A DNA stretch of 64,000 nt from Xylophilus ampelinus (lineage in GTDB: Bacteria; Pseudomonadota; Gammaproteobacteria; Burkholderiales; Burkholderiaceae_C): positions 1-64,000 of the forward strand of contig NZ_CABFMN010000022.1 in NCBI RefSeq assembly GCF_901875635.1. The letters run 5' to 3'. The position numbers and the translations under genes are program-made. Shown here in pieces: positions 9,805-35,200 of this stretch. Position 1 is the first letter of the stretch, and every line of letters starts with the position of its first letter. Under the pieces are notes generated by a model. That model did no database searches. It was not told the DNA's origin and saw only the letters and a program-made list of their open reading frames with translations.

Positions 9805-9901
9805 TCGCGCGTTCGCCGCACGCGCACCGCCACCTTGGGCGGACCCCGCCAACAAGAAGACAGCGCAGGCACGCAGACCCCCGCGACTCGCGCTTCCCAA
9901 G

Positions 9902-11404: not shown

Positions 11405-11410
11405 GCCGAC

Positions 11411-12436
11411 ATGCCGTCCCGCACAAGTCCTGCCTCTGCCTGGCTCATCACCTACTTCGCCGGGTTCGTCGTCGTCTGCGGCATGCTGCTGCTCACGCTC
11501 TTCACACAGCGGCCCTATGGCGACCTTTCGCGCCTGGGCCACGTGTCCGAAGCCGAGTTCGGATGGCGGAAGCCGCCGCCGAAAGTACCGCCCGAGCAAC
11601 TCCAGGGCACGCCGATCGACCAGGCCGACATCCTCGTGATCGGCGACAGCTTCTCGATGACGCACCGCTGGCAGTCCGTGCTGATCCGCAACGGCTACAC
11701 CGTAGCCACTACGTTCTGGGGCCAGTACAACGATGCGCTGTGCGCCGATTTCGACGCGTGGCTCCAGCGGGCCGGCTTTCGCGGCCGCCTGGTGATCATC
11801 GAGAGCGTCGAGCGCCTGCTGTCCGAGCGCATGAAGAAATCCTCGGAATGCCAGGTGACTGCCGGCAAGCTGGAAGCGCACAACCGGCCCTTCCTGCCCC
11901 CGCTCGAGCACCTGCCGACGTTCGAATGGAACACGGGCGTGCCGCTCACGACCGGTTTCGCCACCTTTCGCAACACGCAGAAGATCAAGCGGACACCCGA
12001 TGCGGTCACCGCCGATTTCCGCACCATCGCGCGCCCGGTGAAGGACGGATGCCAGTACTTCAGCAATCGGCTGTGCGAAAAAGCGCTCTTCTTCGGAGAG
12101 GACGATGACAACGGCCCCCTCGCACGCATCGACGCGGAACGCATGGCGAGCTTCGACCGGCAGCACGGGAAAGTCCCGCTGCTGTGGATGGTGATTCCCA
12201 ACAAGACCACGGTCTACATCGACCCGGCGCACTCCGCCGACTTCGTGTCCGCCTTCAACGGGAGCGGCTTGGGGCCCGATCTCTTCGCATTCGCGGCGCG
12301 GGAAAAAGGCCGCATCATGGACTTCTATTTTCCCAATGACACGCACCTGTCGATGCATGGGCAGCTGGCGCTCGGGGACCTGATGCTGGGCGAGGTGCGC
12401 AAGCGCCTGCCCGAACCTCGACCCAAGGGGCCTTGA
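11411..12436 (+). CDS. SGNH hydrolase-like, AlgJ/AlgX-type acetyltransferase partner
   Basis: A 341-residue protein with one N-terminal membrane anchor (SAWLITYFAGFVVVCGMLLL) and a periplasmic domain. The SGNH signature is visible: ILVIGDSFSMTHR (block I Ser, about residue 79) and, near the C-terminus, FPNDTHLSMHG, which supplies the catalytic Asp-His pair. The same arrangement occurs in AlgJ/AlgX and in PatB-type O-acetyltransferases, which take acetyl groups from an MBOAT partner and place them on a polysaccharide. It follows the MBOAT gene by 6 bp, so the two form a unit. Cysteines at CQV, DGCQ and LCEK could form a disulfide. Substrate unknown. Confidence 0.8.
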   Translation: MPSRTSPASAWLITYFAGFVVVCGMLLLTLFTQRPYGDLSRLGHVSEAEFGWRKPPPKVPPEQLQGTPIDQADILVIGDSFSMTHRWQSVLIRNGYTVATTFWGQYNDALCADFDAWLQRAGFRGRLVIIESVERLLSERMKKSSECQVTAGKLEAHNRPFLPPLEHLPTFEWNTGVPLTTGFATFRNTQKIKRTPDAVTADFRTIARPVKDGCQYFSNRLCEKALFFGEDDDNGPLARIDAERMASFDRQHGKVPLLWMVIPNKTTVYIDPAHSADFVSAFNGSGLGPDLFAFAAREKGRIMDFYFPNDTHLSMHGQLALGDLMLGEVRKRLPEPRPKGP

Positions 12437-12472
12437 CGCTATGATGGTTGTACCGGCTTCTCCGGTTCACGC

Positions 12473-13228
12473 GTGATCCTCTACGAGTACCCCTTCAACG
12501 AGCGCATCCGGACCTATCTGCGGCTGGAGCACCTCTTTCGCCGGCTCGGCGAGCTGGTGGCGGCCGACTCGGCGCTGAGCCACCACTACGCGGTGGTCAC
12601 CATCTTCGAGATCATGGACGTCGCGGCGCGCGCCGACCTCAAGGCAGACGTCCTGCGCGACCTCGACAAGCACAAGGCCGTGTTCAACGGCTACCGCGGC
12701 AACCCGGCCATCCAGGAGTCGGTGCTCGACCAGGTCATCGGTCAGCTCGAGCGCAACTTCGCCACCCTCAATGCGATGCCGGGCAAGGCCGGGCAGGCGC
12801 TCACCGAGAACGAGTGGCTCATGGGCGTTCGCAGCCGCGTCGGCATTCCCGCCGGCACCTGCGAGTTCGACCTGCCCGCGTACTACGCCTGGCAGCACCG
12901 CAGCAGCGCCAGCCGCCGCCAGGACCTGGAACGCTGGGCATCCACGCTGGCACCCCTTGCCGAAGCGGTCTTCCTGCTGCTCAAGCTGCTGCGCGACGCC
13001 GACGTGCCCTACAAGGTCATGGCCGCCGGCGGCCAGTTCCAGCAGACCCTGCCGCAGGGCCGCAGCTTCCAGCTGCTGCGCCTGCGCATCGACCCGGCCC
13101 TCGGCCTGGTGCCCGAGATCAGCGGCAACCGCCTCATGGTCTCGGTGCGCCTGATGCGCCACGAGGCCGACGACAAACTGCATCCCAGCACGGAGGATGC
13201 ACCGTTCGAGCTGACGCTGTGCGCATGA
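12473..13228 (+). CDS. zapD: Cell division factor ZapD
   Basis: ZapD (formerly YacF/DUF1342) crosslinks FtsZ protofilaments at the division ring. The 251-residue protein is helical in its N-terminal half ([18 protein letters not shown] matches the conserved start of the family) with a beta-rich C-terminal half ([30 protein letters not shown]). The start is GTG at 12473; no ATG gives the expected N-terminus. It belongs to the conserved coaE-zapD-yacG group, from which coaE is here displaced by the MBOAT/SGNH pair. Confidence 0.95.
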
Positions 13229-18941: not shown

Positions 18942-20848
18942 GAGAAGTCCCGCCCCGCAGCGCGTGGGCGCTGGAGCAGGCCGGCGTGCATCCCCTGCTG
19001 GCGCGCCTGTATGCGGCGCGCGGCGTGCTGTCGGCCGCCGACCTCGACGACGGCCTGGCGCGCCTGCTGCCGCCCCACACCATGAAAGGCACGCGCGAAG
19101 CCGCCGTGCTGCTGGCCGACGCGATCCGCGATGACCGCCGCCTGTGCGTGGTGGCCGACTACGACTGCGATGGCGCCACCGCCTGCGCGGTCGCGGTGCG
19201 CGGGCTGCGCCTGCTGGGCGCGCGCCAGGTCGGCTACCTGGTGCCCGACCGCGTGGTCGACGGCTATGGCCTGACGCCGCCCATCGCCGAGCGCGTGGCC
19301 GCCACCGGCGCCGAGGTGCTCATCACCGTGGACAACGGCATCGCCAGCGTCGAGGGCGTGGCCAGGGCCAAGGCGCTCGGCCTGACGGTGCTCGTGACCG
19401 ACCACCACCTGCCCGGACCCGTGCTTCCGGGAGCCGACGTGCTGGTGAACCCGAACCAGCCCGGCTGCGAATTCGAGAGCAAGAGCATCGCCGGGGTGGG
19501 CGTGATGTTCTATGTGCTGCTCGCGCTGCGGGCGGAGTTGCGGGCGCGCGGAGCATTCGCGCCGCCACGTCCACCATCCGTTCACGCTGAGCCTGTCGAA
19601 GCGCCGCGCGAGGCTTCGACCCTTCGACAAGCTCAGGACAGGCCAGGCTCAGCCCGAACGGCTGGGGATGCTTGCGCCCCCACGCCGGCACAACCCAAGC
19701 TCGACACCCTGCTCCCCCTCGTCGCCCTCGGCACCGTCGCCGACGTGGTGAAGCTCGACCCCAACAACCGCCGCCTCGTCGCCCAGGGCCTCAAGCGCAT
19801 CCGCGCCGGCGCGCTGCCGCACGGCGTTGCGGCCCTGTTCCAGGCCGCGGGGCGCAAGGCCGACGCGGCGACCACCTTCGACTTCGGCTTCGCCCTCGGC
19901 CCGCGCATCAACGCTGCCGGCCGCCTGGCCGACATGACACTGGGCATCGAATGCCTGCTCAGCGACGATGCCGGCCGCTGCGCCGAGCTGGCGCGCACGC
20001 TCGACGGCATCAACCGCGAGCGGCGCGACATCGAGGGCGGCATGCGCGAGCAGGCCTTGCTGCTGGCCGAGTCGCTGTTCGACGAGAACGAGACGCCACC
20101 CTCGGCGATCAGCGTGTTCGACATGGACTTCCACGAAGGCGTGGTCGGCATCGTCGCCTCGCGCATCAAGGACCTGCACCACCGCCCCACCTTCGTCTTC
20201 GCGGCCAGCGCTGCCGACGGCAAGTCGCACGAGCTCAAGGGCTCGGGCCGCTCGATTCCCGGCTTCCACCTGCGTGATGCGCTCGACCTGGTGGCCAAGC
20301 GCCACCCCGGCGTGCTGCTGCGCTTCGGCGGCCACGCGATGGCGGCCGGCTGCACCGTGGCACGCGACCAGTTCGAGACCTTCGAACGCGCCTTCGCCCA
20401 GGTCGCGCACGAATGGCTGGACGCCGCCACGCTCACCCGCCGGCTCGACACCGACGGGCCGCTGGCGCGCGAGTACCTGCGCATCGACTTGGTCGACACC
20501 CTGCACCGCGAGGTCTGGGGCCAGGGCTTCGCGCCGCCGACTTTCAGCGACGAGGTCGAGGTCGTCTCGCAGCGCCTGGTCGGCGAGAAGCACCTGGCAC
20601 TCAAGCTGCGGCTCCAGGGCCAGCCCATCGACGGCATCTGGTTCGGCCACACCGACCCGCTGCCCGCGCGCGTGAAGCTGGCCTTCCGCCTTGATGCCGA
20701 CGAGTGGCAAGGCACGCGGCGATTGCGCCTGATGGTCGAAGGTGCGGAAACAGAGCCCCCACGCTCCCCCGCTGCGCGCGGTCCGCTGCCCCCCGGGGGG
20801 GCGCTCGCCGCCTTGGGGCGGCCCGGCGGCGGCGAGGACGCTCGGTGA
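18926..20848 (+). CDS. recJ: Single-strand 5'-3' exonuclease RecJ
   Basis: RecJ degrades single-stranded DNA 5' to 3' in RecF-pathway recombination and mismatch and base-excision repair. The 640-residue product has the DHH motifs: VVADYDCDGATA (motif I, about residue 78), VTVDNGIAS-type ITVDNGIAS (motif II) and VTDHHLPG (motif III), then NPNQPGC, a DHHA1 domain with LRFGGHAMAAGC, and an OB-fold near the C-terminus. Two oddities are visible. About 35 residues (roughly 216-251) between DHH and the following FGxALGTVADV-type block are encoded by a REP-like palindrome. The last 30 residues (from PPRSPAARG) are encoded by repeat family B. The start codon lies in repeat family A and overlaps the upstream stop. 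Confidence 0.95.
   Translation: MKIVAREVPPRSAWALEQAGVHPLLARLYAARGVLSAADLDDGLARLLPPHTMKGTREAAVLLADAIRDDRRLCVVADYDCDGATACAVAVRGLRLLGARQVGYLVPDRVVDGYGLTPPIAERVAATGAEVLITVDNGIASVEGVARAKALGLTVLVTDHHLPGPVLPGADVLVNPNQPGCEFESKSIAGVGVMFYVLLALRAELRARGAFAPPRPPSVHAEPVEAPREASTLRQAQDRPGSARTAGDACAPTPAQPKLDTLLPLVALGTVADVVKLDPNNRRLVAQGLKRIRAGALPHGVAALFQAAGRKADAATTFDFGFALGPRINAAGRLADMTLGIECLLSDDAGRCAELARTLDGINRERRDIEGGMREQALLLAESLFDENETPPSAISVFDMDFHEGVVGIVASRIKDLHHRPTFVFAASAADGKSHELKGSGRSIPGFHLRDALDLVAKRHPGVLLRFGGHAMAAGCTVARDQFETFERAFAQVAHEWLDAATLTRRLDTDGPLAREYLRIDLVDTLHREVWGQGFAPPTFSDEVEVVSQRLVGEKHLALKLRLQGQPIDGIWFGHTDPLPARVKLAFRLDADEWQGTRRLRLMVEGAETEPPRSPAARGPLPPGGALAALGRPGGGEDAR
19578..19661. repeat. REP-like palindrome inside recJ
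   Basis: GTTCACGCTGAGCCTGTCGA (from 19580) is matched on the other side by CTTCGACAAGCTCAGGACAG and CAGGCTCAGCCCGAACGG. These are the half-sites of the widespread TTCGACAAGCTCAGG-type REP family. It is in frame with recJ (total insertion keeps the frame) and encodes SVHAEPVEAP and STLRQAQDRPGS, residues with no counterpart in typical RecJ. Confidence 0.8.
20755..20827 (+). repeat. Dispersed repeat family B, copy 2, forms the recJ 3' end
   Basis: CCCCCACGCTCCCCCGCTGC, GTCCGCTGCCCCCCGGGGGG and GCCTTGGGGCGGCCCGGC occur in order. The element supplies the C-terminal residues of RecJ and ends about 20 bp before the recJ stop. Confidence 0.75.
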
Positions 20849-20865
20849 CGCCCCCCGCCAGCGCC

Positions 20866-21561
20866 ATGTGGCGCTGCCTGGTGATCGAGGACGACGAGGC
20901 CAACGCCCGCTACATCGCCGACGGCTTCCGAGGCATGGGGCATGTGGCGGTCGTGTGTCGCGACGGGGCCGATGCGCTCGCGCGTGCCACCGGCGAGGCC
21001 TGGGAGCTGGTCATCCTCGACCGCATGCTGCCCAATGGCGTGGACGGCCTCTCGATCCTCTCGACGCTGCGCAACCTGGGCCTGCGCACGCCCGTGCTGG
21101 TGCTCAGCGCCCTGAGCGCGCTCGACGAGCGCGTGCGCGGCCTCAAGGCCGGCGGCGACGACTACCTGGCCAAGCCCTTCGCCTTCTCCGAGCTGGCCGC
21201 CCGCGCCGAGGCGCTGGTGCGCCGCTCGCGCACCGGCCCCGAAGTGCGCGTGCTGCAGCTGGCCGACCTGCGGCTGGACCTGGGCAGCCGCAAGGTCGAG
21301 CGCGCGGGCCGTGCCATCGCGCTGCAGCCGCGCGAGTTCCGCCTGCTGGCCTGCCTGATGCTCAACGCCGGGCAGGTGATGACGCGCACCATGCTGCTCG
21401 AGGCCGTGTGGGACTACCAGTTCGACCCGCAGACCAACGTGATCGACGTACAGATCAGCCGCCTGCGCACCAAGCTCGATGCGGCGGGCGGCCCTTCGCT
21501 CATCCACACCGAGCGGGGCGTGGGCTACCGCCTGGCTGCACCCGACGCACCGCCGGCCTGA
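20866..21561 (+). CDS. tctD: OmpR-family response regulator (TctD-like)
   Basis: A 231-residue response regulator: receiver domain (residues 1-115) with acidic pair IEDDEAN, phosphoacceptor Asp in VILDRMLPNG (about 52), Thr/Ser in VLVLSALS and Lys in YLAKPFAF; then a winged-helix DNA-binding domain ending in RLRTKLDAAGG and GVGYRLA. An alternative GTG start at 20845 overlaps the recJ stop (GTGA) and would add seven residues. Its stop overlaps the start of the kinase gene. The name TctD is inferred from the tctBA genes that follow; in known systems TctDE activates tricarboxylate uptake. Confidence 0.85.
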   Translation: MWRCLVIEDDEANARYIADGFRGMGHVAVVCRDGADALARATGEAWELVILDRMLPNGVDGLSILSTLRNLGLRTPVLVLSALSALDERVRGLKAGGDDYLAKPFAFSELAARAEALVRRSRTGPEVRVLQLADLRLDLGSRKVERAGRAIALQPREFRLLACLMLNAGQVMTRTMLLEAVWDYQFDPQTNVIDVQISRLRTKLDAAGGPSLIHTERGVGYRLAAPDAPPA

Positions 21562-22922
21562 TGGGCACGCTGCGCCGCCTGTGGGCGTCGGCGGGCTTCC
21601 GGCTCGCCTTCCAGTACGCGGTGCTGGTGGCCATCACGATGATGGCGGCGCTGGCCATCGTCTACCTGCAGACGGTGGGCGTGCTGCACCAGCGCATCGC
21701 GCGCCAGGTGGGCGCCACGGTGCAACAGCTCGCCGCGCGCTTCGACGGCGAAGGCGCCGCCGGCGTCGTGCAGGCGATCGACGCGGCGCTGGCCGACGGC
21801 CGCCAGTCCGACGAGGAGATGTACCTGCTGGCCGCGCCCGACGGCCGGCGCCTGGCCGGCAACCTCGATGCGCTCCCCGAAGGCATCGGCGACAGCGACG
21901 GCCAGCGCCGCGCGCTGCGCCGCGGCGAGCCCGTCACCGGCTACCTGGCGCAGCGGCGGCTGGCCGACGGCCATGTGCTGGTGGTGGGCCACGACCTGCG
22001 CGACCAGGAGGCGCTGGAGTCGCTTGTCGTCAGCGCCAGTGCCGCGGCCGGCGTGGTGGCGCTGCTGCTGCTGGTGGGTGGCGTCTTCGTGTTCCGCCAG
22101 GAGCTGGACCGTGCCGTGGGCGCCGTGCGCCGCACCGCCACGCGCATTGCCGACGGCGACCTGCGCGAGCGCGTGGTAGTGGACGCGCAGGACGACGAGT
22201 TCGCCCGCCTCGGGCAGGAGATCAACGCGATGCTCGACCGCATCGAGTCGCTGATGGCCGGCGTGCGGCATGTGTCCGACACCATCGCCCACAACCTGCG
22301 CACGCCCCTCACGCGCGTGCTGCTGGGCCTGCGCGCCGCCCAGGCCGAGGGGGTATCGCCGAGGGAGTGCGAGCAGGCCGTCGCCACCGCCATCCGCGAA
22401 CTCGAGGCGCTCGGTACCGTGTTCGAGAAGCTGCTGCAGATCGCCGAGGCCGAAACCGGTGCGCGCCGCCGCGACTTCGCCCCCGTGGCGCTGCACACCA
22501 TCGTGGACGACGTGCTGGAGTTGTACGACGCCGTGGCCGAGGCGCAGGGCGCCACGCTGCTGCGTGAAGCGGGCGACGAGGAGGTGATGGTGCCTGGCGA
22601 CCGCGACCTGCTGGCCGGCGTGGTCGCCAACCTGGTGGACAACGCGCTCAAGTACGGCGGCACGGGCTGCACCGTGACGGCCGGCGCGCACTGGGACCAC
22701 GGCCGCGCCGTGCTCACCGTGCGCGACGACGGCCCCGGCGTGCCGCCGGCCGAGCGCGAGCGCATCGGCACGCGCTTCGTGCGCCTGAAACCCGAGCTGC
22801 CCGGCCAGGGCCTGGGCCTGGCCAGCGTGCAGGCGGTGGTCGCGCTGCACGGCGGGCACGTGCACTACGCCGACGCCGCTCCCGGCCTGCAGGTGCGCAT
22901 CGAGCTGCCGCGCCACGGCTGA
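21561..22922 (+). CDS. tctE: Sensor histidine kinase (TctE-like)
   Basis: A 453-residue kinase with two membrane helices (about residues 14-36 and 158-178) around a small periplasmic domain, a HAMP linker (VGAVRRTATRIADGDLRE), an H-box DTIAHNLRTPLTR (His about 243), N-box LVDNALKYGG, DDGPGVP (G1) and GQGLGLASVQ (G2). The H is followed by Asn instead of the common Glu or Asp. It overlaps the response-regulator stop by one base. Ligand is inferred to be a tri- or dicarboxylate because of the adjacent tctBA genes. Confidence 0.88.
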   Translation: MGTLRRLWASAGFRLAFQYAVLVAITMMAALAIVYLQTVGVLHQRIARQVGATVQQLAARFDGEGAAGVVQAIDAALADGRQSDEEMYLLAAPDGRRLAGNLDALPEGIGDSDGQRRALRRGEPVTGYLAQRRLADGHVLVVGHDLRDQEALESLVVSASAAAGVVALLLLVGGVFVFRQELDRAVGAVRRTATRIADGDLRERVVVDAQDDEFARLGQEINAMLDRIESLMAGVRHVSDTIAHNLRTPLTRVLLGLRAAQAEGVSPRECEQAVATAIRELEALGTVFEKLLQIAEAETGARRRDFAPVALHTIVDDVLELYDAVAEAQGATLLREAGDEEVMVPGDRDLLAGVVANLVDNALKYGGTGCTVTAGAHWDHGRAVLTVRDDGPGVPPAERERIGTRFVRLKPELPGQGLGLASVQAVVALHGGHVHYADAAPGLQVRIELPRHG

Positions 22923-22945
22923 CCGCCTCCTCACTGCACCACCCA

Positions 22946-22963
22946 CATTGCCGAATGGCAATG
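22946..22963. promoter_or_regulatory. Palindrome upstream of tctB
   Basis: CATTGCC-GAAT-GGCAATG is a perfect inverted repeat with 7-bp arms and a 4-bp spacer. It lies 23 bp after the kinase stop and about 117 bp before the tctB start, in the only sizeable gap between the regulators and the transporter genes, a good position for a regulator site. Confidence 0.5.
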
Positions 22964-23079
22964 TTCCCGTCATCCACGGCGGCCGCGGCTCTTCCTACGA
23001 TCGTCCTCGCACGTCCCGTGCCTTTCACGGCGGGCGCCTGCGCCCGCACGTTCCGCATCGATACAAGGAGACTTCCAGG

Positions 23080-23565
23080 GTGAAGATCAAGAGTCAGAGA
23101 GACTTCTTTTCCGGCGCGCTGTTCTGCGCCTTCGGCGTGGCCTTCGCCTGGGGCGCCACCACCTACAACGTCGGCACCGGCGCCCGCATGGGGCCCGGCT
23201 ACTTTCCGCTGATCGTCGGCGTGCTCATCGCCATCATGGGCGCGCTCATCACGGCCAAGTCGATGATCGTCGAGACCGAAGACGGCGAGCCCGTGGGCCG
23301 CATCGCCTGGAAGCCCCTGGTCTTCATCATCAGCGCCAACCTCATGTTCGGCGTGCTGCTCGGCGGCCTGCCGAGCATCGGCCTGCCGCCGATGGGGCTG
23401 ATCGTCGCCATCTACGCCCTGACCTTCATCGCCGGCCTGGCCGGCGACAAGTTCAGCCTCAAGGGCTCGGCCGTGCTGGCGACCATCCTCGCCATCGGCA
23501 GCTACCTGGCCTTCGTCGTCGCGCTCAAGCTGCAGTTCCCCGTGTGGCCCACCTTCGTCGCCTGA
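23080..23565 (+). CDS. tctB: Tripartite tricarboxylate transporter small membrane subunit TctB
   Basis: A 161-residue protein with four hydrophobic helices. The N-terminus KIKSQRDFFSGALFCAFGVA and the motif GTGARMGPGYFPLIVGVLI are characteristic of TctB. It forms the small membrane component of TTT importers with TctA. The start is GTG at 23080, supported by AAGGAG ten bases upstream; longer upstream starts are in non-conserved sequence. No gene for the periplasmic binding protein TctC is seen in this window. Confidence 0.92.
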   Translation: MKIKSQRDFFSGALFCAFGVAFAWGATTYNVGTGARMGPGYFPLIVGVLIAIMGALITAKSMIVETEDGEPVGRIAWKPLVFIISANLMFGVLLGGLPSIGLPPMGLIVAIYALTFIAGLAGDKFSLKGSAVLATILAIGSYLAFVVALKLQFPVWPTFVA

Positions 23566-23599
23566 CACCTTCCTACAACGAGACATCCGCTCCGGCCCC

Positions 23600-25111
23600 A
23601 TGGAACTCTTCGACAACCTGGCGATTGGCTTCGGCGTCGCCTTCACTTTCCAGAACCTCGTCTACGCCTTCGTCGGCTGCCTGCTGGGCACGCTGATCGG
23701 CGTGCTGCCGGGCATCGGTCCCGTCGCGACGATCGCGATGCTGCTGCCGGCCACCTACGCGCTGCCGCCCGTGTCGGCGCTGATCATGCTGGCGGGCATC
23801 TACTACGGGGCCCAATACGGCGGGTCGACGACCGCCATCCTGGTCAACCTGCCGGGCGAGTCCTCGTCCGTGGTCACGGTGATCGACGGCTACCAGATGG
23901 CGCGCAAGGGCCGCGCCGGGCCCGCGCTCGCGGCGGCAGGCCTGGGCTCCTTCTTCGCCGGCTGCGTGGGCACCATCATCCTGGCCGCCTTCGCACCGCC
24001 GCTCACCGAACTGGCCTTCAAGTTCGGCCCGGCCGAATACTTCTCGCTCATGATCCTGGGCCTGATCGGCGCGGTGGTGCTGGCCTCGGGCTCGCTGCTC
24101 AAGGCGATCACGATGATCCTGCTGGGCCTCGCGCTGGGCCTGGTCGGCACCGACGTGAACTCCGGCGTGGCGCGTTATTCCTTCGACATCCCCGAACTCA
24201 CCGACGGCATCGGCTTCATCGCCATCGCCATGGGCGTGTTCGGCTACGGCGAGATCATCGGCAACCTGTCGCAGCCCGAGGAGAGCCGCGAGGTCTTCAC
24301 CTCGAAGGTCAAGGGCCTGATGCCGACCAAGGAAGACTTCAAGCGCATGGCGCCCGCGGTGCTGCGCGGCACGGCCCTGGGCTCGGCGCTGGGCATCCTG
24401 CCGGGCGGCGGCGCGCTGCTGTCGTCCTTCGCGTCATACACCATCGAGAAGAAGATCAAGCGCAAGCCCGGCGAAGAGGCCTTCGGCAAGGGCAACATCC
24501 GTGGCGTGGCGGGTCCCGAGTCGGCCAACAACGCCGGCGCGCAGACCTCCTTCATCCCGCTGCTGACGCTGGGCATCCCGCCCAACCCGGTGATGGCGCT
24601 GATGGTCGGTGCGATGACCATCCACAACATCCAGCCCGGCCCGCAGGTGATGACCAGCAACCCCGAGCTGTTCTGGGGCCTGATCGCCTCGATGTGGATC
24701 GGCAACCTGATGCTGATCATCCTGAACCTGCCGATGATCGGCATCTGGATCAAGCTGCTGACCATCCCCTACAAGTGGCTCTTCCCCGCCATCGTGCTGT
24801 TCTGCGCCGTGGGCGTCTATTCGGAGAACAACAACACCTTCGACGTGTGGATGGTGGCGATCTTCGGCATCGTCGGCTACGCCTTCCTCAAGCTCAAGTG
24901 CGAGCCCGCGCCGCTGCTGCTGGGCTTCATCCTGGGGCCGATGATGGAAGAGAACCTGCGGCGCGCCCTGCTGCTCTCGCGCGGCGACTGGTCGGTCCTG
25001 GTCACGCGGCCCATCTCGGCCGGCCTGCTGGTCGTGGCGGCGGCGCTGCTGGTGATCGTGCTGCTGCCGGCCGTGAAGGCCAAGCGCGAGGAAGCCTTCG
25101 TCGAGGAGTGA
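23600..25111 (+). CDS. tctA: Tripartite tricarboxylate transporter large membrane subunit TctA
   Basis: A 503-residue inner-membrane protein with about twelve helices. Typical TctA motifs are present: ALPPVSALIMLAGIYYGAQY, GGSTTAILVNLPGESSSVVT, GILPGGGALLSSF and GPESANNAGAQTSFIPLLTL, the last two forming the paired substrate-site loops. It follows tctB by 34 bp and is closed by a strong terminator 20 bp downstream. Substrate (citrate or a related carboxylate) is inferred from the family. Confidence 0.95.
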   Translation: MELFDNLAIGFGVAFTFQNLVYAFVGCLLGTLIGVLPGIGPVATIAMLLPATYALPPVSALIMLAGIYYGAQYGGSTTAILVNLPGESSSVVTVIDGYQMARKGRAGPALAAAGLGSFFAGCVGTIILAAFAPPLTELAFKFGPAEYFSLMILGLIGAVVLASGSLLKAITMILLGLALGLVGTDVNSGVARYSFDIPELTDGIGFIAIAMGVFGYGEIIGNLSQPEESREVFTSKVKGLMPTKEDFKRMAPAVLRGTALGSALGILPGGGALLSSFASYTIEKKIKRKPGEEAFGKGNIRGVAGPESANNAGAQTSFIPLLTLGIPPNPVMALMVGAMTIHNIQPGPQVMTSNPELFWGLIASMWIGNLMLIILNLPMIGIWIKLLTIPYKWLFPAIVLFCAVGVYSENNNTFDVWMVAIFGIVGYAFLKLKCEPAPLLLGFILGPMMEENLRRALLLSRGDWSVLVTRPISAGLLVVAAALLVIVLLPAVKAKREEAFVEE

Positions 25112-26090: not shown

Positions 26091-26768
26091 TCAGCGCCCG
26101 AACTCTTGGCTCAGCCCCACGGTGTAGACCGTGCCGCCGGGGCGCACCTTGGCGGCGCTGAGGTCCAGCGTCAGCATCGGCGTGAGGCCGAAGCGCAGGC
26201 CGCCGCGTGTGGTCCATGCGCCCTGGGCGCGGTTGCGCTCGACGATGAACGACACCTTCTCGTCCACCGCCCATTCGACGGCCGCGCCGACGCGCCGGGT
26301 GCGCACGCCGCTGCCGGCGGCCCAGTCGGCGCCGAGGTTCGCATGCAGTTGCAGGCTCGGCAGCGGCTGCCAGGTCACCGGCAGCAGCCATTGGCGGCCG
26401 GGCCGGCCGTGGTTGCGCAGGTCCCACGACGCGCCGAACTCGACGGCGGCACGCAGCGGACCGTCGGGTTGGCCGTACCAGGTCCACTTGACGGCCGGGC
26501 CCACGGTGCGGCTGCGCGCGTCCGGCGACGCCGAGCGGTCGAGGTTCAGGCCCAGTTCGACCGCGCCGACGCGGCAGGCCGGGCCGACATGCTGGAAGCC
26601 GGTCGACGTCGCGTCGGCGCGCCCGGCCCAGGACTCGACCTGGCAGCGGCCGGGCGCCAGCGTGTCGGCATCGTCGACGTCAAAGTGGCCGCCTGCGCCC
26701 GCGCTGCCCGCCGCCAGTGCCAGGGCGGCTTGCGGCAGGAGGCGCGGGATGTGAAGGCGAAGCGACAT
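26091..26768 (-). CDS. Probable outer-membrane/exported beta-rich protein
   Basis: A 225-residue protein with a signal peptide (LLPQAALALAAGSAGA, cleavage after about residue 25). The mature part shows amphipathic alternating strands (GAVELGLNLDRS; GPAVKWTWYG; LRAAVEFGASWDLR; LQLHANLGADWAAG; TLDLSAAKV) and ends with a strand and a terminal basic residue, VYTVGLSQEFGR, as small outer-membrane barrels do. I recognise no specific family. It lies 36 bp downstream of the LuxR-type response regulator on the same strand and could be in that operon. Confidence 0.65.
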   Translation of the reverse strand: MSLRLHIPRLLPQAALALAAGSAGAGGHFDVDDADTLAPGRCQVESWAGRADATSTGFQHVGPACRVGAVELGLNLDRSASPDARSRTVGPAVKWTWYGQPDGPLRAAVEFGASWDLRNHGRPGRQWLLPVTWQPLPSLQLHANLGADWAAGSGVRTRRVGAAVEWAVDEKVSFIVERNRAQGAWTTRGGLRFGLTPMLTLDLSAAKVRPGGTVYTVGLSQEFGR

Positions 26769-26804: not shown

Positions 26805-27836
26805 CTACACCTCGAAGTGCGGCTGGATCATGCGGATGCGCTTGATGGCCACGCCCGCGGCGGCGGTGCGCGTCTCCACGCCGAGCTTGACGAACACGCG
26901 CTCCAGGTGCTTCTTGGCGGTGGCCGGGCTGCTGCCCAGGATGTCGCCGATGTCCTTGTTGGTCTTGCCCTTGACCACCCAGTACAGCACCTCGGCCTCG
27001 CGCGCGGTGAGCTTCAGCGCCAGGCTCATGGCCTCGATCACGCTGGCGTCGGACACCTCGCGGATGATGAGCAGCCAGTCACCGGCCCAACCCGGCAGGT
27101 TCTGCCCGGGCTCGTCACGGTCGCCGGTCTGCTGGTGCACGCGCAGCTGCAGGTGGCGCGCACCCTGCTCGATGGTCAGCGGCGGCGGCTCCACGCCGCC
27201 CGCCGTGGCCGGCAGGTGCTGCTGCAGCCAGTCGAGCACGGCCGCCGGCGTTTGCGGCGCCATGGTGCCGCAGTAGCGCAGCAGCAGGTCGCGCGCCAGC
27301 GAGGTCTGCCAGATGAGCCGCCCCTCGGGCATGCGTACCGTGATGCTGGCGTAGCCGAAGGCATCGAGGGCGTTGCGCGCCTGGCCGGCCTGCTGGGCCT
27401 GCTGGCGCGCCGCGCGGGCGCCCTGCAGGTGCACGTTCATGCGCGCGAGCACTTCCTTGGGCTTGATCGGCTTGGTCACGTAGTCCACGCCGCCGGCATC
27501 CAGCGCAGCCACCAGGTGCTCGGTCTCGGTCAGCCCCGTCATGAAGACGATGGGAATGTGGACGGTGGCCGGGTCGGCCTTGAGCCGGCGCGCGACCTCG
27601 AAACCGTCCATGCCCGGCATCATGGCGTCGAGCAGCACGATGTCGGGCTGCGCCTGCGCGGCGCGGGCCAGCGCCGCTTCGCCACTGGTGGCCACCAGCA
27701 CCGTGTAGCCCGACTCGTCCAGCGCGTCATGCAGCATGGCAAGGTTGTCGGGCACGTCGTCGACGATGAGCACCAGGTCGCCGCGCGCGGTCTCCTCGCG
27801 CAGGCTCGCGGCCAGGGGCGACGGCGGGGGATTCAT
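26805..27836 (-). CDS. Response regulator with LuxR-type HTH
   Basis: A 343-residue regulator: receiver domain (about residues 20-140) with LIVDDVPDN, phosphoacceptor Asp in [15 protein letters not shown], and [10 protein letters not shown]; a linker (about 150-260) of unknown fold; and a C-terminal LuxR/GerE HTH in [20 protein letters not shown] with [20 protein letters not shown]. The ATG at 27836 overlaps the stop of the fusion kinase (ATGA), so the two are made together and almost certainly form a cognate pair. Divergence of the pair from the urease operon suggests nitrogen-source control. Confidence 0.88.
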
Positions 27837-30800
27837 GCCATGGACTCCGGCGCCGCGCCCGCACGGCGGATGGCTTCGGCCACCGCCTCGAACTGGAACT
27901 GCCTGGCGCGCGTGCGTTGCATCGCAGTCCAGGCGGCGCAGGCCGGCTGCGCCGCGTCGATCTCGTCGAGCTGTTTCATGATGCCGCGAAGGTAACCGAG
28001 CTGGACGGCCTCCTCCAGGGCGAGCAGCCGATCGGGCGAAGGCGCCAGGGGCGGATCCGCCGCGTGCGGCTGCGCCGTGGCCGCTGCGGGCGCCTCGGTC
28101 CAGCGCAGCTGCAGGCGGCGCTCCAGCCAGTCGAGCAGCTCGCTGTGGCGCACCGGCTTGACGAAGAAGTCCTCGGGCGTGATGCCGACGTCGTTCTCCA
28201 GCCGCTTGTCGAAGGCATTGGCCGAAACGATGGCGGTTGCTGGCCCCCACGCCCGGCACTGCGTGTCCTCGCTGTCCCCCGAGGGGGCCGCGTCCGGCTT
28301 GGGGCGGCCCGGCGCCGGCCGGCGCCCCCGCTCTCCTGCCTCCCAGAAGGCGCGCGCCCGGCGCAGCGTCTCCCAGCCGTCGATGCCGGGCATCGCAAGG
28401 TCCACGAACATGGCGTGCGGCCGGAAGCCGGCCGCCAGCAGGTCGAGCGCGTCGTGGCCGCTGGCGGCAGTCCGCAGCTCGAAGCCCAGCGGCGCCAGCA
28501 GGTGCACCAGCAGTTCGCGGTCGGTCTCCTCGTTGTCGACCACCAGCAGGCGGCGGCGCTCGCCCTCGTAGCCACGCCGGGGGCGTGCCGCCATGGCGGG
28601 CGGCGGGGCGGCGTTGGCCGCGCGCGCAGGTGCCTCGTGCACCCGCGGCAGGAACAGGCGCACCCGGAACACCGAGCCCTGCCCCGGCGTGCTCTGCACC
28701 TTCATCTCGCCGCCCATCAGGTCGGTGAGCATCTTGGCCATCGTCAGGCCCAGGCCGGCGCCCGGGGTGGCCGCCGTGCCGGGCGACTCCACGCGCACGA
28801 AGGGCTCGAAGATGCGCGCCAGCGCCTGCGCGTCCATGCCGGGGCCGGTGTCCTCGATCTCGAGCGTGGCGAATTCGCGCGCATAGGCCACGCGCAGGCC
28901 CACCTCGCCGTGGGCGGTGAACTTGATGGCATTGCCCAGCAGGTTGATGAGGATCTGGCGCACGCGCTTCTCGTCGGCGCGCACCACCTCGGGCAGGTTC
29001 CCGGCGGGCTCGAAGCGAAAGCGCAGGCCCTTGTCAGCGGCCTGCGGCTCGAACATCTCGGCCAGCTCGCGCAGCATGTCGACGAAGCGCAGCGGGCGCG
29101 CCTGCAGGGTGAGCTTGCCCGACTCGATGTGGGCCAGGTCCAGCGTGCCCTCGATGAGCGACAGCAGATGCTCGCCGCCGCGCTTGATGACGGCCACGGC
29201 CTGCTGCCGGTGCGGCGGCACGGAGGCGTCCTCGCCCATGAGTTGGGCGTAGCCGAGGATCGAATTGAGCGGCGTGCGCAGCTCGTGGCTGATGGCGCTG
29301 ATGTAGCGGCTCTTGGCCTGGTTGGCGGCGTCTGCCGTCCGCTTGGCTTCCTGCAGGGCGCGGTCGGTCTCGCGGTGCAGTTCGATCTCGCGCATCAGCA
29401 GATGGGTCTGCCGGTTCGACTCCTCCTGCGCCACCTTGCGGCTCTGGTGCGCCAGCACCAGCCACCAGGCGACGATGCCGGCGATCAGCAGCAGTGCCAT
29501 GTAGGCCTTGAAGAAGCCGCCGCGCAGCGCGCTGCCCACCTCGGCGCTCACCGCCTTGCCCACGCCGGGCGCCGCGGCCGCGCCCGCCTGCACCCATTCG
29601 CCGACGCCGCGCAGCTCCTGCTGGTAGAGCACGCCGAACACCGCGGCCAGCAACGGCACGACGATCAGCATGAGCATGATGAAGTGGCCCAGGCCGGTGT
29701 CGAGGTAGGGCCATACGCGGCGCGGCAGCAGCCAGCGCAGGGTCGCCGACCATTGCGCCGAAAGCGAGGCCTGCGGCTTGCACAGGTCGCCGCAGCGCGC
29801 GTCGAGGGTGCAGCACAGCGAGCAGATGGCGCCCTGGTACGCGGGGCAGTGCGCCATGTCGGGGCCTTCGTACTCGCGTTCACAGATGACGCAGCGCTGT
29901 GCGGCAAGGCGGGCATACGCGCCCTCTTGCGTCTCGGCGCGGGCGCGCGCTGCATCCGGCCTGAAGACGAGCGGCCGGGAGCCTGCGTCGCGGGCAAGGT
30001 AATAGCGCCCCCTCGTCGCCCACGCGATCAGCGGCGCCGTCACGAAGGCCGTGCCCAGTGCGATGACGGCCGAGAAGGACTGCGCCAGCGGCCCGAACAC
30101 GCCCAGGTGCGCGGTGATCGACAGCGCCGAGGCCAGCACCATCGCACCGACGCCCACCGGGTTGATGTCCCACAGGTGGGCGCGCTTGAACTCGATGCCC
30201 GGCGGCGACAGGCCCAGCGGCTTGTTCACCACGAGGTCGGCGACGACCGCCATCATCCAGGCGATGGCGATGTTGGCGTACAGGCCCAGCACGTCGCCCA
30301 GGGCCTCGAACACGTTCATCTCCATGAGCATGAACGCGATGAGTGCGTTGAACACCACCCACACCACGCGGCCCGGGTGGCTGTGCGTGACGCGCGAGAA
30401 GAAGTTGCTCCAGGCCAGCGAACCCGCGTAGGCGTTCGTCACGTTGATCTTGAGCTGGGAGATCACGACGAAGAGCGCCGTCGCCGCCACCGCCCAGCCG
30501 TACTGCGGGAACACGTACTCGTAGGCGGCGAGGTACATCTGGTTCGGGTCCACGGCGCGCTCGGTCGGCACCATGTGGGTGATCGCCAGATACGCCAGCA
30601 ACGCACCGCCCAGCATCTTGACCACGCCCAGCACCACCCAGCCCGGCCCGCCGGCCATCACGCCAAGCCACCAGCGGCCGCGGTTGGCACGGGTGCGCGC
30701 GGGCATGAAGCGCAGGTAATCGGCCTGTTCGCCCATTTGCGTGATCAGCGCGATGCCGACCGTCAAAGCCGCACCGAACAGGTGCAGATTGAAGCCGGCG

Positions 30801-31561
30801 GAGCCTTTTTTATCCCCGGCGTAGTGCGTAATTCCTGCGAACGCACCAGGATCGCGCATCAACACGAAACCGAAGGGCACCACCAGCATGAGCAGCCAGA
30901 TCGGCTGCGTCCACAGCTGCAGGCGGCTGATGGCCGAGACGCCGTGCGTGACCAGCGGAATGACGACCAGCGCACACACCAGGTAGCCCCAGGCCGGCGG
31001 GATGCCCAGGGCCAGCTCGAGCGCGTAGGCCATCACGGCCGCCTCGAGCGCGAAGAAGATGAAGGTGAAGCTGGCGTAGATCAGCGAGGTGATGGTCGAC
31101 CCGATGTAGCCGAAGCCCGCCCCGCGCGTGAGCAGGTCCATGTCGACGCCGTAGCGCGCGGCGTACACGCTGATCGGCCAGCCGGCCAGGAAGATGATGA
31201 GCCCCGTCGCCAGGATGGCCCAGAAGGCATTGGCGAAGCCGTACTGCACCAGCAGCGTGGCGCCCACGGCTTCCAGGATCAGGAACGACGCCGCTCCGAA
31301 GGCAGTGTTAGCCACCCGCCATTCCGACCACTTGCGAAAACGCTGCGGCGTGAAGCGCAGCGCGTAGTCCTCCAACGTCTCGCTGCCGACCCAGCTGTTG
31401 TAGTCGCGCCGGACTTTGACGATGCGTTGCGGCGCGTCCTCGCGGCCGGCGTCGGACGTCTCGATGGCAGGGGCGGACTCGGGGGGCACACCATTGCGGT
31501 GCACATTCCATGCCGAAGCCAGCGCGCGGCACGACTGTTGCAAGGACGCGTCGTTGCCCAT
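27833..31561 (-). CDS. NCS1 permease - Cys-rich - histidine kinase - receiver fusion
   Basis: A 1242-residue hybrid. Residues about 50-540 are an NCS1-type nucleobase/allantoin/hydantoin permease: [20 protein letters not shown] is the usual N-terminal signature, followed by about twelve helices. Residues about 552-597 are a cysteine-rich segment ([23 protein letters not shown]) that looks metal-binding. Two more helices follow (about 625-650 and 690-710), then a HisKA domain with [10 protein letters not shown] (His about 759), an HATPase domain with [14 protein letters not shown] and [10 protein letters not shown], and a receiver with [13 protein letters not shown] (Asp about 1052). Within the receiver about 24 codons are repeat family B. 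A helical C-terminal region follows. It overlaps the LuxR-type regulator and starts 42 bp from ureA, divergently. Ligand unknown; urea, allantoin or a pyrimidine are candidates. Another possibility is that it still transports. Confidence 0.9.
28243..28314 (+). repeat. Dispersed repeat family B, copy 3, in frame in a receiver domain
   Basis: GCCCCCACGCCCGGCACTGC, CGCTGTCCCCCGAGGGGGC and GGCTTGGGGCGGCCCGGC in order. On the coding (minus) strand it encodes roughly [20 protein letters not shown], placed between alpha-3 and beta-4 of the receiver of the fusion kinase, and its 72 bp keep the frame. Confidence 0.8.
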
Positions 31562-31603
31562 AATGCTTCGCGATCACAGAGAAGCAACATCGAGCCCAGC
31601 GAT

Positions 31604-31906
31604 ATGGAACTGACTCCCAGAGAGAAAGACAAGCTCCTGATCTTCACCGCCGCCCTGCTGGCGGAGCGGCGCAAGGCCCGGGGCCTGAAGCTGAACTACC
31701 CCGAGGCGGTGGCCTTGATCTCCGCAGCCGTCATGGAAGGTGCGCGCGACGGCAAGACCGTCGCCTCGCTGATGAGCGAGGGCCGCGCCGTCCTGACGCG
31801 CGACGACGTGATGGAAGGGGTGCCGGAGATGATTCCCGACATCCAGGTCGAAGCGACCTTCCCCGACGGCACGAAGCTCGTGACCGTGCACCAGCCGATT
31901 GCCTGA
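31604..31906 (+). CDS. ureA: Urease gamma subunit
   Basis: A 100-residue protein of the usual UreA length with the family start [40 protein letters not shown] and [20 protein letters not shown]. It is the smallest part of the (UreABC)3 nickel enzyme that hydrolyses urea to ammonia and carbamate. It is the first gene of the operon here; the only sequence between it and the divergent fusion kinase is 42 bp. The accessory gene ureD, which often precedes ureA, is absent from this side. Confidence 0.97.
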
Positions 31907-31924: not shown

Positions 31925-32527
31925 ATGTCCTTCACCCGCCCTGTCCGCGTCGCCGCCGTTGCGCTCGCCTGCCTGATCACCCTGCCTGCCCTCGCCCACA
32001 CGGGCGCCGACGCCGGCCTGCACCACGGCCTGGTCGCCGGCTTCATGCACCCGCTGACCGGTCTCGACCACCTGGCCGCCATGGTGGCGGTGGGCCTGTG
32101 GAGCGCGCTGGTGGCGCGGCGCGGCACCGACCTGCTGTGGGCTCCCCTGGGCTTCGTGGCCATGCTGCTGGTCGGCGCGCTGATGGGCCTGGCCGGCGTG
32201 CAGCTGCCGGCGGTCGAGCCGATGATCGCGGCCTCGCTGCTGGTGCTGGGCCTGCTGGTGCTCACGCAGAAACGCCTGCCGGCGCTGGCCGCCGCCGCGC
32301 TGGTCGGCGTGTTCGCCATCTTCCACGGCATCGCGCACGGCCACGAGTTGGCCGGCGAGCCGGATGCCGCGCTGACGCTGGCCGGCATGGTGGCGGCCAC
32401 GGCGCTGCTGCATGTCGCCGGCATCGGCGTGGGTTACGCGCTGCGCCATGCCAACCGCTGGGTGCCGCGCGTCGCAGGCGCGGCCGTGGCGCTGCTGGGC
32501 GCGGCGCTGCTCGGCGGCTTGGCCTGA
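31925..32527 (+). CDS. ureJ: HupE/UreJ-family nickel permease
   Basis: A 200-residue membrane protein with a signal-like N-terminus ([16 protein letters not shown]) and about six helices. The HupE/UreJ signature [20 protein letters not shown] and the second block [15 protein letters not shown] hold the conserved histidines thought to bind Ni(II). Located between ureA and ureB, 18 bp after ureA, as in many betaproteobacterial urease operons. Role in nickel supply for urease is inferred from family and position. Confidence 0.92.
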
Positions 32528-32540
32528 TTGGAGCGCGGCG

Positions 32541-32849
32541 ATGACCATCCCCGGTGAACTGCTGATCGACGCGGGCGATCACGACCTGAACCCCGGCCGC
32601 CGCACGCTGACGGTGGTGGTGAAGAACACCGCCGACCGCCCGATCCAGGTCGGCTCGCACTACCACTTTGCCGAGACCAACGGCGCGCTCGACTTCGACC
32701 GCGACGCCGCGCGCGGCATGCGGCTGAACATCGCCTCGGGCACGGCCGTGCGCTTCGAGCCCGGGCAGCAGCGCACGGTGGAACTGGTCGACTACGCCGG
32801 GGCGCGCACCGTGTACGGCTTTCGCGGGCTGGTGCAAGGGCCGCTCTGA
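32541..32849 (+). CDS. ureB: Urease beta subunit
   Basis: A 102-residue Ure[21 protein letters not shown], then the typical [20 protein letters not shown] and [18 protein letters not shown] blocks. It joins UreA and UreC in the urease apoenzyme. It begins 13 bp after ureJ. The 149 bp to ureC contain a large palindrome. Confidence 0.97.
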
Positions 32850-32998: not shown

Positions 32999-34717
32999 GT
33001 GGCATCGATTTCACGCCGCGCCTACGCAGAAATTTTCGGCCCCACCGTGGGCGACCGCGTGCGCCTGGCCGACACGGGCCTGGTGATCGAGGTCGAGGAG
33101 GACTACACCCTGCGCGCCGGCGGCTACGGCGAAGAGGTGAAGTTCGGTGGCGGCAAGACCATCCGCGACGGCATGGCGCAGAGCCAGCGAACGCGCGCCC
33201 AGGGCAGCGTCGACACGGTCCTCACCAACGCGCTCATCCTCGACCACTGGGGCATCGTCAAAGCCGACATCGGCCTCAAGGACGGCCGCATCGCCGCCAT
33301 CGGCAAGGCCGGCAACCCCGACACGCAGCCTGGCGTGGACATCGTCATCGGCCCCGGCACCGAGGTCATCAGCTGCGAAGGCAACATCGTCACGGCCGGC
33401 GGCATCGACAGCCACATCCACTTCATCTGCCCGCAGCAGATCGAGGAGGCGCTGGCCAGCGGCGTGACCACCATGCTCGGCGGCGGCACCGGCCCTGCCA
33501 CGGGCACCTTCGCCACCACCTGCACGCCCGGCCCCTGGCACATCGAGCGCATGCTGCAGGCGGCCGACGCCTTCCCGATGAACCTGGGCTTCCTGGGCAA
33601 GGGCAACGCGAGCCGGCCCGAGGCACTGCACGAGCAGATCGAGGCCGGCGTGATCGGCCTGAAGCTGCACGAGGACTGGGGCACCACGCCCTCGGCCATC
33701 GACCATTGCCTGGACGTGGCCGAGGCCACCGACACGCAGGTGGCGATCCATTCCGACACGCTGAATGAATCGGGCTTCGTCGAGGACACCATCGCCGCCA
33801 CCAAGGGCCGCTCGCTGTGCGCCTTCCACACAGAAGGCGCCGGCGGCGGGCATGCGCCTGACATCCTGCGCGTGGTGGGCGAGGCGAACTTCCTGCCCTC
33901 GTCCACCAACCCCACGATGCCCTACACCGTGAACACGCTCGACGAGCACGTCGACATGCTCATGGTGTGCCACCACCTCGACGCCGCGATCGCAGAAGAC
34001 CTGGCCTTCGCCGAATCGCGCATCCGCAAGGAGACCATCGCGGCCGAGGACATCCTGCACGACCTGGGTGCCATCAGCATGATGAGCAGCGACTCGCAGG
34101 CCATGGGCCGTGTGGGCGAGGTCATCATCCGCACCTGGCAGACGGCGAGCAAGATGAAGGCGCAGCGCGGCGCGTTGCCCGAGGACAGCGAGCGTGCCGA
34201 CAACTTCCGCGCCAGGCGCTACGTCGCGAAATACACGATCAACCCCGCCATCTCGCATGGCATCGCGCACGAGGTCGGCAGCCTCGAAGTGGGCAAGTGG
34301 GCCGACATCGTGGTCTGGAAGCCGGCCTTCTTCGGCGTGAAGCCTTTCTGCATCCTCAAGGGCGGGAGCATCGCCATGGCCGCCATGGGCGATCCCAACG
34401 CAAGCATTCCCACCCCGCAGCCCGTGCACTACCGGCCGATGTTCGGCGCCTTCGGCGGCTCATTGGCCAGGAGTTCGCTGACCTTCGTGTCGCAGGCGGG
34501 CCTGGCGGCCGGCGTGAAGGAACGCTATGGCCTCGCCAAAACAGTAAGCGCGGTGAAGAACATCCGCGGCGTGCAGAAGCAGCACCTGATCCACAACGGC
34601 TACACGCCGAAGATGGAGATCGACCATCAGACCTACGCCGTGCGTGCCGATGGCGTGCTGCTCACCTGCGAGCCGGCGAAGGTGCTGCCGATGGCGCAGC
34701 GGTATTTCCTCTTCTGA
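32999..34717 (+). CDS. ureC: Urease alpha (catalytic) subunit
   Basis: A 572-residue amidohydrolase carrying the dinuclear nickel centre. Visible are the metal ligands in [14 protein letters not shown], the carbamylated lysine in [15 protein letters not shown] (Lys about 222), the flap His region [15 protein letters not shown], and SSDSQAMGR with the ligand Asp. Length is normal. The start is GTG at 32999 with AGGAG upstream; it follows the palindrome. It ends 3 bp before a GNAT gene. Confidence 0.98.
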
Positions 34718-34720
34718 CCG

Positions 34721-35200
34721 ATGGCGGCGGCGCTGCACATTCGCCTGGATGACCTGCGCGACCCGCGCATCGCCGCCTTCCTGGAAGAGCACCTGGCGGA
34801 CATGCGCCGCGTCTCGCCGCCCGAAAGCGTGCATGCGCTGGACCTGGACGGCCTGCGCCGCCCCGAGATCCGCTTCTGGAGCGCCTGGACGGCCGATGCG
34901 GCTGGCGAGGCGCTGGCGGGCACCGTGGCGTTGAAACGGCTGGACGACGGCCATGCGGAGCTCAAGTCCATGCGCACCGCCGTGCACTTGCGCGGCCAGG
35001 GCATCGCGGCACGACTGCTGGCCCACGCGCTGGCTGAGGCCCGCGTCGCCGGCCACACGCGCATGAGCCTGGAGACCGGCAGCCAACCCTTCTTCGCGCC
35101 CGCGAGAGCGCTTTATGCCCGACACGGGTTCGAAGCGTGTGCACCGTTCTCCGACTACGCGAACGACCCGGCCAGCCACTTCATGACGCGGATGCTCTAG
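34721..35200 (+). CDS. GNAT-family N-acetyltransferase
   Basis: A 159-residue GNAT protein. The acetyl-CoA loop is in AELKSMRTAVHLRGQGIAAR, followed by LLAHALAEARVAGHTRMSLE and the C-terminal FFAPARALYARHGFEACAPF. GNATs of this type (PhnO/YsnE-like) acetylate small amines or protein lysines; the substrate is not known. It starts 3 bp after ureC and precedes ureE, so it is co-transcribed with the urease genes. Confidence 0.85.
   Translation: MAAALHIRLDDLRDPRIAAFLEEHLADMRRVSPPESVHALDLDGLRRPEIRFWSAWTADAAGEALAGTVALKRLDDGHAELKSMRTAVHLRGQGIAARLLAHALAEARVAGHTRMSLETGSQPFFAPARALYARHGFEACAPFSDYANDPASHFMTRML

Follow-up and report, generated by a model that had tools for sequence, protein, structure and literature searches.

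A 64,000-nt stretch of Xylophilus ampelinus DNA (contig NZ_CABFMN010000022.1, positions 1 to 64,000; the window) encodes a hybrid sensor kinase (HK) and a LuxR-type response regulator that probably form a two-component system, in which a transporter-derived receptor detects urea and/or short-chain amides and the regulator switches on their uptake and hydrolysis. Both genes lie on the minus strand, divergent from the urease gene ureA, with a 42-bp gap between the HK open reading frame (ORF) and ureA. The HK (27,833–31,561) is 1242 amino acids (aa) long as an ORF; its true start possibly lies downstream, with a GTG at 31,489–31,487 as the candidate. Structure prediction places an NCS1-fold permease domain at about residues 64–525 (29,987–31,372), followed by an eight-cysteine segment with the pattern CxxC-x11-C-x7-CxxCC-x5-C-x3-C (residues 557–594; 29,780–29,893) and two long helices from secondary structure prediction (residues about 623–706; 29,444–29,695) that are probably inserted in the membrane as a hairpin leading to the kinase. 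Pfam recognizes HisKA (residues 749–815; 29,117–29,317), HATPase_c (residues 863–971; 28,649–28,975) and receiver domains (matched part, residues 1006–1071; 28,349–28,546). The regulator (26,805–27,836, 343 aa) carries both the receiver (REC) and the GerE helix-turn-helix that mark LuxR/NarL-type proteins, and its start codon overlaps the HK stop codon in the sequence ATGA. A first-pass annotation had proposed a single 1242-residue chain of permease, cysteine-rich segment, kinase and receiver, coupled to a LuxR-type regulator and divergent from ureA; the ORF, the domain and fold predictions and the gene coordinates confirm this arrangement.

The permease fold was taken from structure prediction because sequence searches found no transporter: the region is recognized by neither Pfam nor NCBIfam, PF02133 gave no match in residues 1–735 at E up to 10, and profile-based sequence searches of the PDB returned no transporter. 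The predicted structure is of the NCS1/LeuT type and is nearest to CodB and Mhp1. For the pocket, 183 family sequences were aligned to CodB; these were picked by match length to the permease-cysteine region, which leaves out relatives that have lost part of it, and comprise 82 representatives under 85% identity, a few places being included twice. The NCS1-conserved Arg, Asn and Tyr are kept, R284 (CodB Arg216) and Y378 (CodB Tyr285) in all 183. In this distant alignment both ring-stacking residues are replaced, CodB W108 by F (172 sequences) or L (11) at residue 169 and CodB F204 by L, I or M at residue 272. Where the alignment is also gapped, the Na2-site hydroxyls of CodB Thr278/Thr279 correspond to V, L, M or I at 374 and mostly T at 375, and an invariant Lys371 stands at the Na+-site position of CodB Asn275. 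The HK permease thus differs from CodB and Mhp1 in the ring-stacking pair, in the Na+ ligands, in its lack of a PF02133 match and in its fusion to a kinase. A functional importer of hydantoin, allantoin or pyrimidines with a signaling role as well would accord with the fold and with the retained Arg, Asn and Tyr; the lost aromatics, Lys371 and the urea and amide genes that recur around the HK make such an importer improbable. Allantoin, hydantoin and pyrimidine genes were not among the recurrent neighbors identified, in a survey that did not look for them by name.

The closest standalone NCS1 relative found is a 497-aa protein in locus L234 (region 9449–12,668; loci and genomes of our sets carry L and G numbers) that matches PF02133 at E 3.6e-9 and aligns with the HK permease family at 99.9% probability. 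It is encoded directly before a nitrilase-type carbon-nitrogen hydrolase, a possible clue to the ancestral substrate.

All eight cysteines of the segment are invariant (183/183 sequences, 82/82 representatives), while His571 within it is not. In a search of 398 phylum genomes that scored up to nine candidates per genome, every strong match to the module (E below 1e-30) lay within a permease fusion; the weaker matches were a partial one in L255, a fragment in G376 and three at E 0.002–0.006. Predicted alone, the segment forms four short strands and one helix, and its structural matches, weak resemblances to zinc fingers for the most part, fall below significance; a RING/PHD/B-box-like binuclear finger, with a treble-clef or cross-brace fold and paired metal-ligand sites, is one possible model. 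As the match lists are dominated by zinc fingers, bound zinc is the likelier reading. The first-pass annotation had suggested that the cysteines sense nickel or redox state. Nothing was found in favor of nickel, and an invariant segment confined to the fusion among strong matches, resembling mostly zinc fingers, did not bear the suggestion out. A broader version, in which the segment is the sensor (of nickel, zinc or redox state) and the permease an anchor, gains from the invariance of the cysteines and yet must account for permease residues E173, Q275, E278 and Q279, which are invariant to the same degree, and for weak structural matches that are mostly structural zinc fingers. Moreover, nickel enzymes are often absent near the HK, since 28/50 phylum and 17/48 order places (sets described below) have urt and formamidase/amidase genes and no urease within 8 kb. 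We give this version very little probability. The L255 kinase (9357–11,213) retains just the end of the cysteine segment, lacks the permease, lies near a regulator resembling that of the window, and is a possible degenerate relative of the family.

The ligand was assigned from the genes around the HK. Urease, urt and formamidase/aliphatic-amidase genes were counted within 8 kb of the HK in three sets of different places, with UrtA, UrtB, UrtC, UrtE, FmdA, FmdB and AmiE identified by Pfam or NCBIfam. Such genes are present at 74 of 82 HK places (80 loci) in the nearest set, at 38 of 48 in an order set (the order-wide matches minus five nearest or already included; six further weak-match stretches held no kinase) and at 46 of 50 in a phylum set (52 further stretches). 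Five of the eight nearest-set misses are near a contig end, and in L054 and L063 the HK is part of an extended cluster in which urt and ureABC lie at a greater distance. Contig ends also explain L143 (which has a clustered UrtA neighbor), L175 and L176 in the order set and L225 and L254 in the phylum set, where the other misses are L255 and L261, a 31% partial match. The urt genes are not everywhere, as UrtA scored above the cut-off in only 97 of 290 order genomes. Annotated records agree: the urease order of the window recurs in Mitsuaria sp. 7, and the urt order is found in Rhizobium T136, in Sinorhizobium meliloti pSymB (with three genes in between) and on a Klebsiella plasmid (with formamidase). 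In a quick, midpoint-rooted tree of 83 representatives, the window falls in a clade whose neighbors are mostly urease or urt genes; the other clade is mostly urt-formamidase, with urt and urease instead in several of its branches. Genome G001, the source of L001, holds both kinase types. The HK is therefore not a fusion that lies always away from urease genes, the finding that would have spoken against the first-pass annotation. Its proposal of a receptor for urea, allantoin or pyrimidine breakdown products survives in part: the tie to urea is favored by the neighboring genes and by predicted operators before urt-fmd and detached amiE genes, while the same neighbors and the replaced aromatics disfavor the allantoin and pyrimidine ligands.

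The order-level kinase of L129 (3625–12,160) adjoins draT and nifHDK instead of urea or amide genes, which represents another nitrogen context or chance. A gene beside the HK in L146 considered as urea carboxylase proved to be a DEAH-type helicase. In several loci, such as L094 (7965–10,371), amiE is followed by a gene for a CbbQ/MoxR-type AAA protein and by a partner ORF, about 530 aa long, that has no NCBIfam match.

A candidate operator for the regulator was found where the HK diverges from urtABCDE. The palindrome TACG-N8-CGTA is present in 45 of these 53 loci (54 sites), against 0.12 loci expected from dinucleotide shuffles, and spacings of 0–15 other than 8 occur in 0 or 1 loci; as one place was counted twice (L063, L097), the count becomes 44 of 52. 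Of the eight loci lacking it, four carry a version that differs by a single letter (TGCG...) and four show no clear site. A -10-like box (at least 4/6 letters) follows the palindrome at offset 21 in 11/45 loci and at offset 23 in 6/45, with one case only at other offsets between 14 and 35; this would center the operator at about -42 to -44. A fixed spacing of exactly 23 nt was rejected on counting in favor of 21–23 nt in a subset. Among 300 order genomes a stricter palindrome occurs in 21, namely 18 of the 48 that carry the entire fusion, neither of the two with a partial one and 3 of the 250 others, and in 17 of the 18 it lies near the fusion; a reversed control pattern was found in 15 genomes, one with the fusion. 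Matches in G033 (the remaining fusion genome, in a coding region), G191, G240 and G270 fall within or next to unrelated genes and were put down to chance. Additional sites lie just upstream of detached amiE genes in L286, L287, L288 (on a different contig from the HK) and L096, the last being the only one of 33 AmiE genes in HK loci with a palindrome before it; the others, by eye, are mostly inside the urt-fmd cluster. Three of the four named records (S. meliloti, Rhizobium T136, Klebsiella plasmid) have sites, the urease-linked Mitsuaria does not; none of these sites was used in the scoring matrix, though a relative of the Rhizobium site was. Position and co-occurrence suggest that the regulator binds the palindrome.

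The ureA promoter of the window is of a different kind. A sigma54-type element facing ureA (31,527–31,541, plus strand; CGGCACGACTGTTGC) matches 9/10 letters; a sigma54-like GG-N10-GC element facing the HK (31,501–31,514, minus strand) is a weak 7/10 match, and its -12 element is overlapped by an NtrC-like dyad, CACACC-N5-GGTGCA (31,487–31,503). At a cut-off of 8/10 letters or more, with expected counts from shuffles, sigma54-type sites face ureA in 73 of 75 urease-linked loci (6.5 expected) and the HK in 61 of 75 (6.2 expected); the 14 loci without the latter include L001–L003, the nearest ones to the window. The corresponding numbers in urt-linked loci are 3/53 toward urtA (9.1 expected) and 29/53 toward the HK (11.7 expected). 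NtrC-like dyads of at least 10/12 letters occur in 25/75 urease-linked (2.6 expected) and 14/53 urt-linked loci (1.9 expected). Because most urease-linked loci come from Comamonadaceae, and L001 and L002 from a single strain, the loci counted do not represent independent events. Sigma54 promoters are not expected to respond to a LuxR-type regulator that has no AAA+ domain. Because the ureA promoter of the window has a sigma54-type site and no recognizable operator, its direct activation by the regulator is unproven and not supported by the sequence. At 31,554–31,565, just after the sigma54 site, TTGCCCATAATG with a -10-like CATAAT, seen by eye also in Xenophilus and many Variovorax loci, is a possible overlapping sigma70 promoter.

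These observations suit an alternative in which the family senses short-chain amides only, the urease-linked copies add no sensing of their own and are simply under the same nitrogen control as urease, and the window ureA is driven by NtrC and sigma54 alone while the regulator acts elsewhere. The 73/75 sigma54-type sites, the missing operator and the mostly urt-formamidase composition of the second clade all fit it. What it leaves unexplained is why the urease-linked clade in Comamonadaceae keeps the divergent order, why L243, L249, L250 and L251, from other branches, have urt and urease with no formamidase within 8 kb, and why operator-like sites (score of at least 8) are kept in 18 of 75 urease-linked loci, against 0.3 expected. 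These sites occur chiefly in Acidovorax, Polaromonas, Ramlibacter and some Variovorax, and those of six loci, all from Acidovorax, are followed by TATGAT or TAAGAT at offset 23. We regard amide-only sensing as unlikely, though by a good deal the most plausible of the alternatives.

Several of our results weigh against a urea and/or amide two-component system acting through the palindrome. The ligand is inferred from neighboring genes, and such genes are missing nearby in L075 of the nearest set, a miss left unexplained, and at the order-wide places L129, L134, L146, L147, L173, L174 and, with shorter flanks, L131. The altered appearance of the Na+ site implies that transport may be lost. Only some of the palindrome loci have a clear -10-like element, and the operator-like sites before urease genes are confined to a minority. 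In the ureA region of the window no operator was found, the best score in the 64 kb being 5.3 against about 23 for the named-record sites, and the HK-facing sigma54-like site falls below the cut-off. Finally, shuffles ignore shared descent, and the urease-linked loci are mostly from one family.

The receptor reading that we favor can be cast as a mechanism. An NCS1-type nucleobase-transporter fold would have been reshaped into a "transceptor" for urea and/or short-chain amides such as formamide and acetamide. Ligand binding would shift the permease, and the shift would pass via the eight-cysteine, probably zinc-bound, knuckle and the helix pair to the hybrid kinase. The phosphoryl group may then move via the HK receiver to the LuxR-type regulator, as the domain content suggests. 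In the wider family, the regulator would bind TACG-N8-CGTA at about -42 to -44 and activate the sigma70 promoters of urtABCDE-fmdA(-amiE), and the same palindrome would serve to activate detached amiE genes. The window would represent a urease-linked paralogue, in which ammonia control, presumably via NtrC, is layered on the ureA promoter and, in most relatives, on the HK promoter through sigma54-type sites; a number of relatives, chiefly Acidovorax, also have an operator-like site before ureA, which the window lacks. A more ambitious proposal, which we hold tentatively and at somewhat less than even chances, joins these elements into a dedicated membrane receptor of Proteobacteria for urea and formamide-type amides. 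It would combine three things: an NCS1 fold turned receptor, in whose pocket acidic and amide residues (E97, E173, Q275, E278, Q279) replace the ring-stacking ones; an eight-cysteine zinc module that is new and so far confined to this kinase family; and a TACG-N8-CGTA regulon that governs the uptake and hydrolysis of urea and amides and of which a duplicate came to serve urease in Comamonadaceae. According to a review, the Methylophilus fmd genes are induced by formamide and urea and repressed by ammonia (PMC10781810), which by analogy is what the transceptor model predicts. A formamidase-linked urt-like cluster of Bradyrhizobium has, in a paper on urt annotation, already been inferred to carry amides (PMC3098086).

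The nearest known arrangement is CrbS/CrbR, which likewise pairs a transporter-fused hybrid kinase with a LuxR-type regulator and places a palindrome directly upstream of RpoD promoters for uptake and assimilation genes, the CrbR motif lying at -52 to -36 of acs (PMC5715377). The HK family is not a member of the CrbS/CrbR family, because its permease family and, apparently, its linker differ: CrbS has SLC5, STAC and acetate, and the HK, which carries no SLC5 transporter domain, has NCS1, the eight-cysteine segment and, we infer, urea or amides. No Pfam match was found in residues 1–735, where the cysteine segment occupies its position and with no STAC model compared; the CrbR motif differs from TACG-N8-CGTA in letters and spacing. 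A LuxR-type partner with a predicted operator upstream of a putative sigma70 promoter is found in the urt-linked loci (the box in a subset) and not at the window ureA. The Pseudomonas histidine transceptor CbrA also joins a transporter fold and a kinase in a single chain and is termed a transceptor, but has an SLC5-STAC-PAS architecture; its partner CbrB is not known to be LuxR-type. The Amt-fused ammonium sensor kinase of Kuenenia similarly uses a nitrogen-source transporter fold as a histidine kinase receptor, but with the Amt fold and for ammonium, and is not known to have a cysteine segment. Substrate-specific regulators known in this area include UreR for urea and AmiC/AmiR for amides. 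The latter also acts on an amidase of the amiE type and on accompanying ABC transporter genes, but through a periplasmic-binding-type ligand sensor (AmiC) and an RNA-binding antiterminator (AmiR), and its description names no kinase.

The family is common. Nearest relatives are 94–96% identical over the N-terminal 700 residues of the HK (L001, 95%) and place the window with Xenophilus-like Comamonadaceae, and at least 8000 sequence-search candidates match, every scored candidate among them. With up to three candidates scored per genome, so that copies may be missed, the fusion covers the whole query in 48 of 300 order genomes, with partial matches in two more and weak ones only in three (53 in total); in the phylum, strong matches occur in 52 of 398 genomes and weak or short ones in five (57 in total). 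PLSDB yielded 540 matching records, of which 505 span 80% of the query or more; Klebsiella accounts for 342, matching the permease part, and Sinorhizobium for 78, and S. meliloti pSymB carries a family kinase. Full-text literature searches, whose coverage mostly excludes subscription papers, found no description of an NCS1-fused kinase, and one paper that they turned up, on a Burkholderia biofilm operon, proved unrelated; a widespread kinase family thus appears undescribed in the literature searched, and NCS1 joins the transporter folds reused as kinase receptors. The same searches yielded no membrane-bound sensor of urea and small amides, although induction of fmd by formamide and urea has long been reported (PMC10781810). 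The family supplies a candidate sensor, regulator and operator for this response, and the cysteine segment is an unstudied coupling module. If correct, our reading ties the evolution of transporters to the control of urease and to the way soil- and plant-associated bacteria use nitrogen, a link that can be tested.

On the conjugative IncF plasmid p1_020098 of Klebsiella pneumoniae (L328, 4897–14,369), the same kinase is transcribed divergently from urtABCDE, together with which a formamidase gene is found, and insertion sequences are annotated beyond the kinase. A split version of the HK possibly exists in L227 (7346–11,156) and L253 (6898–10,847), where a permease-cysteine chain of about 890 aa is followed by a separate protein, near formamidase; in L227 this protein has receiver and kinase-ATPase domains.

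Downstream of ureA (urease gamma, 31,604–31,906), the plus strand of the window encodes a HupE/UreJ family protein (31,925–32,527; assigned from its location, since its positional counterpart in Mitsuaria sp. 7 is annotated HupE/UreJ), ureB (urease beta, 32,541–32,849) and ureC (urease alpha, 32,999–34,717, by Pfam). The name UreE was dropped as wrong for a 159-aa ORF at 34,721–35,200, and a separate UreE query was used for the searches. Downstream of the regulator, a 225-aa ORF (26,091–26,768, minus strand) has no family from NCBIfam and has relatives (cluster c14) in 24 loci, mostly Variovorax. Upstream of the HK, positions 20,704–25,111 hold what appears to be a second two-component pair, followed by TctB- and TctA-like genes, TctA being recognized by Pfam.

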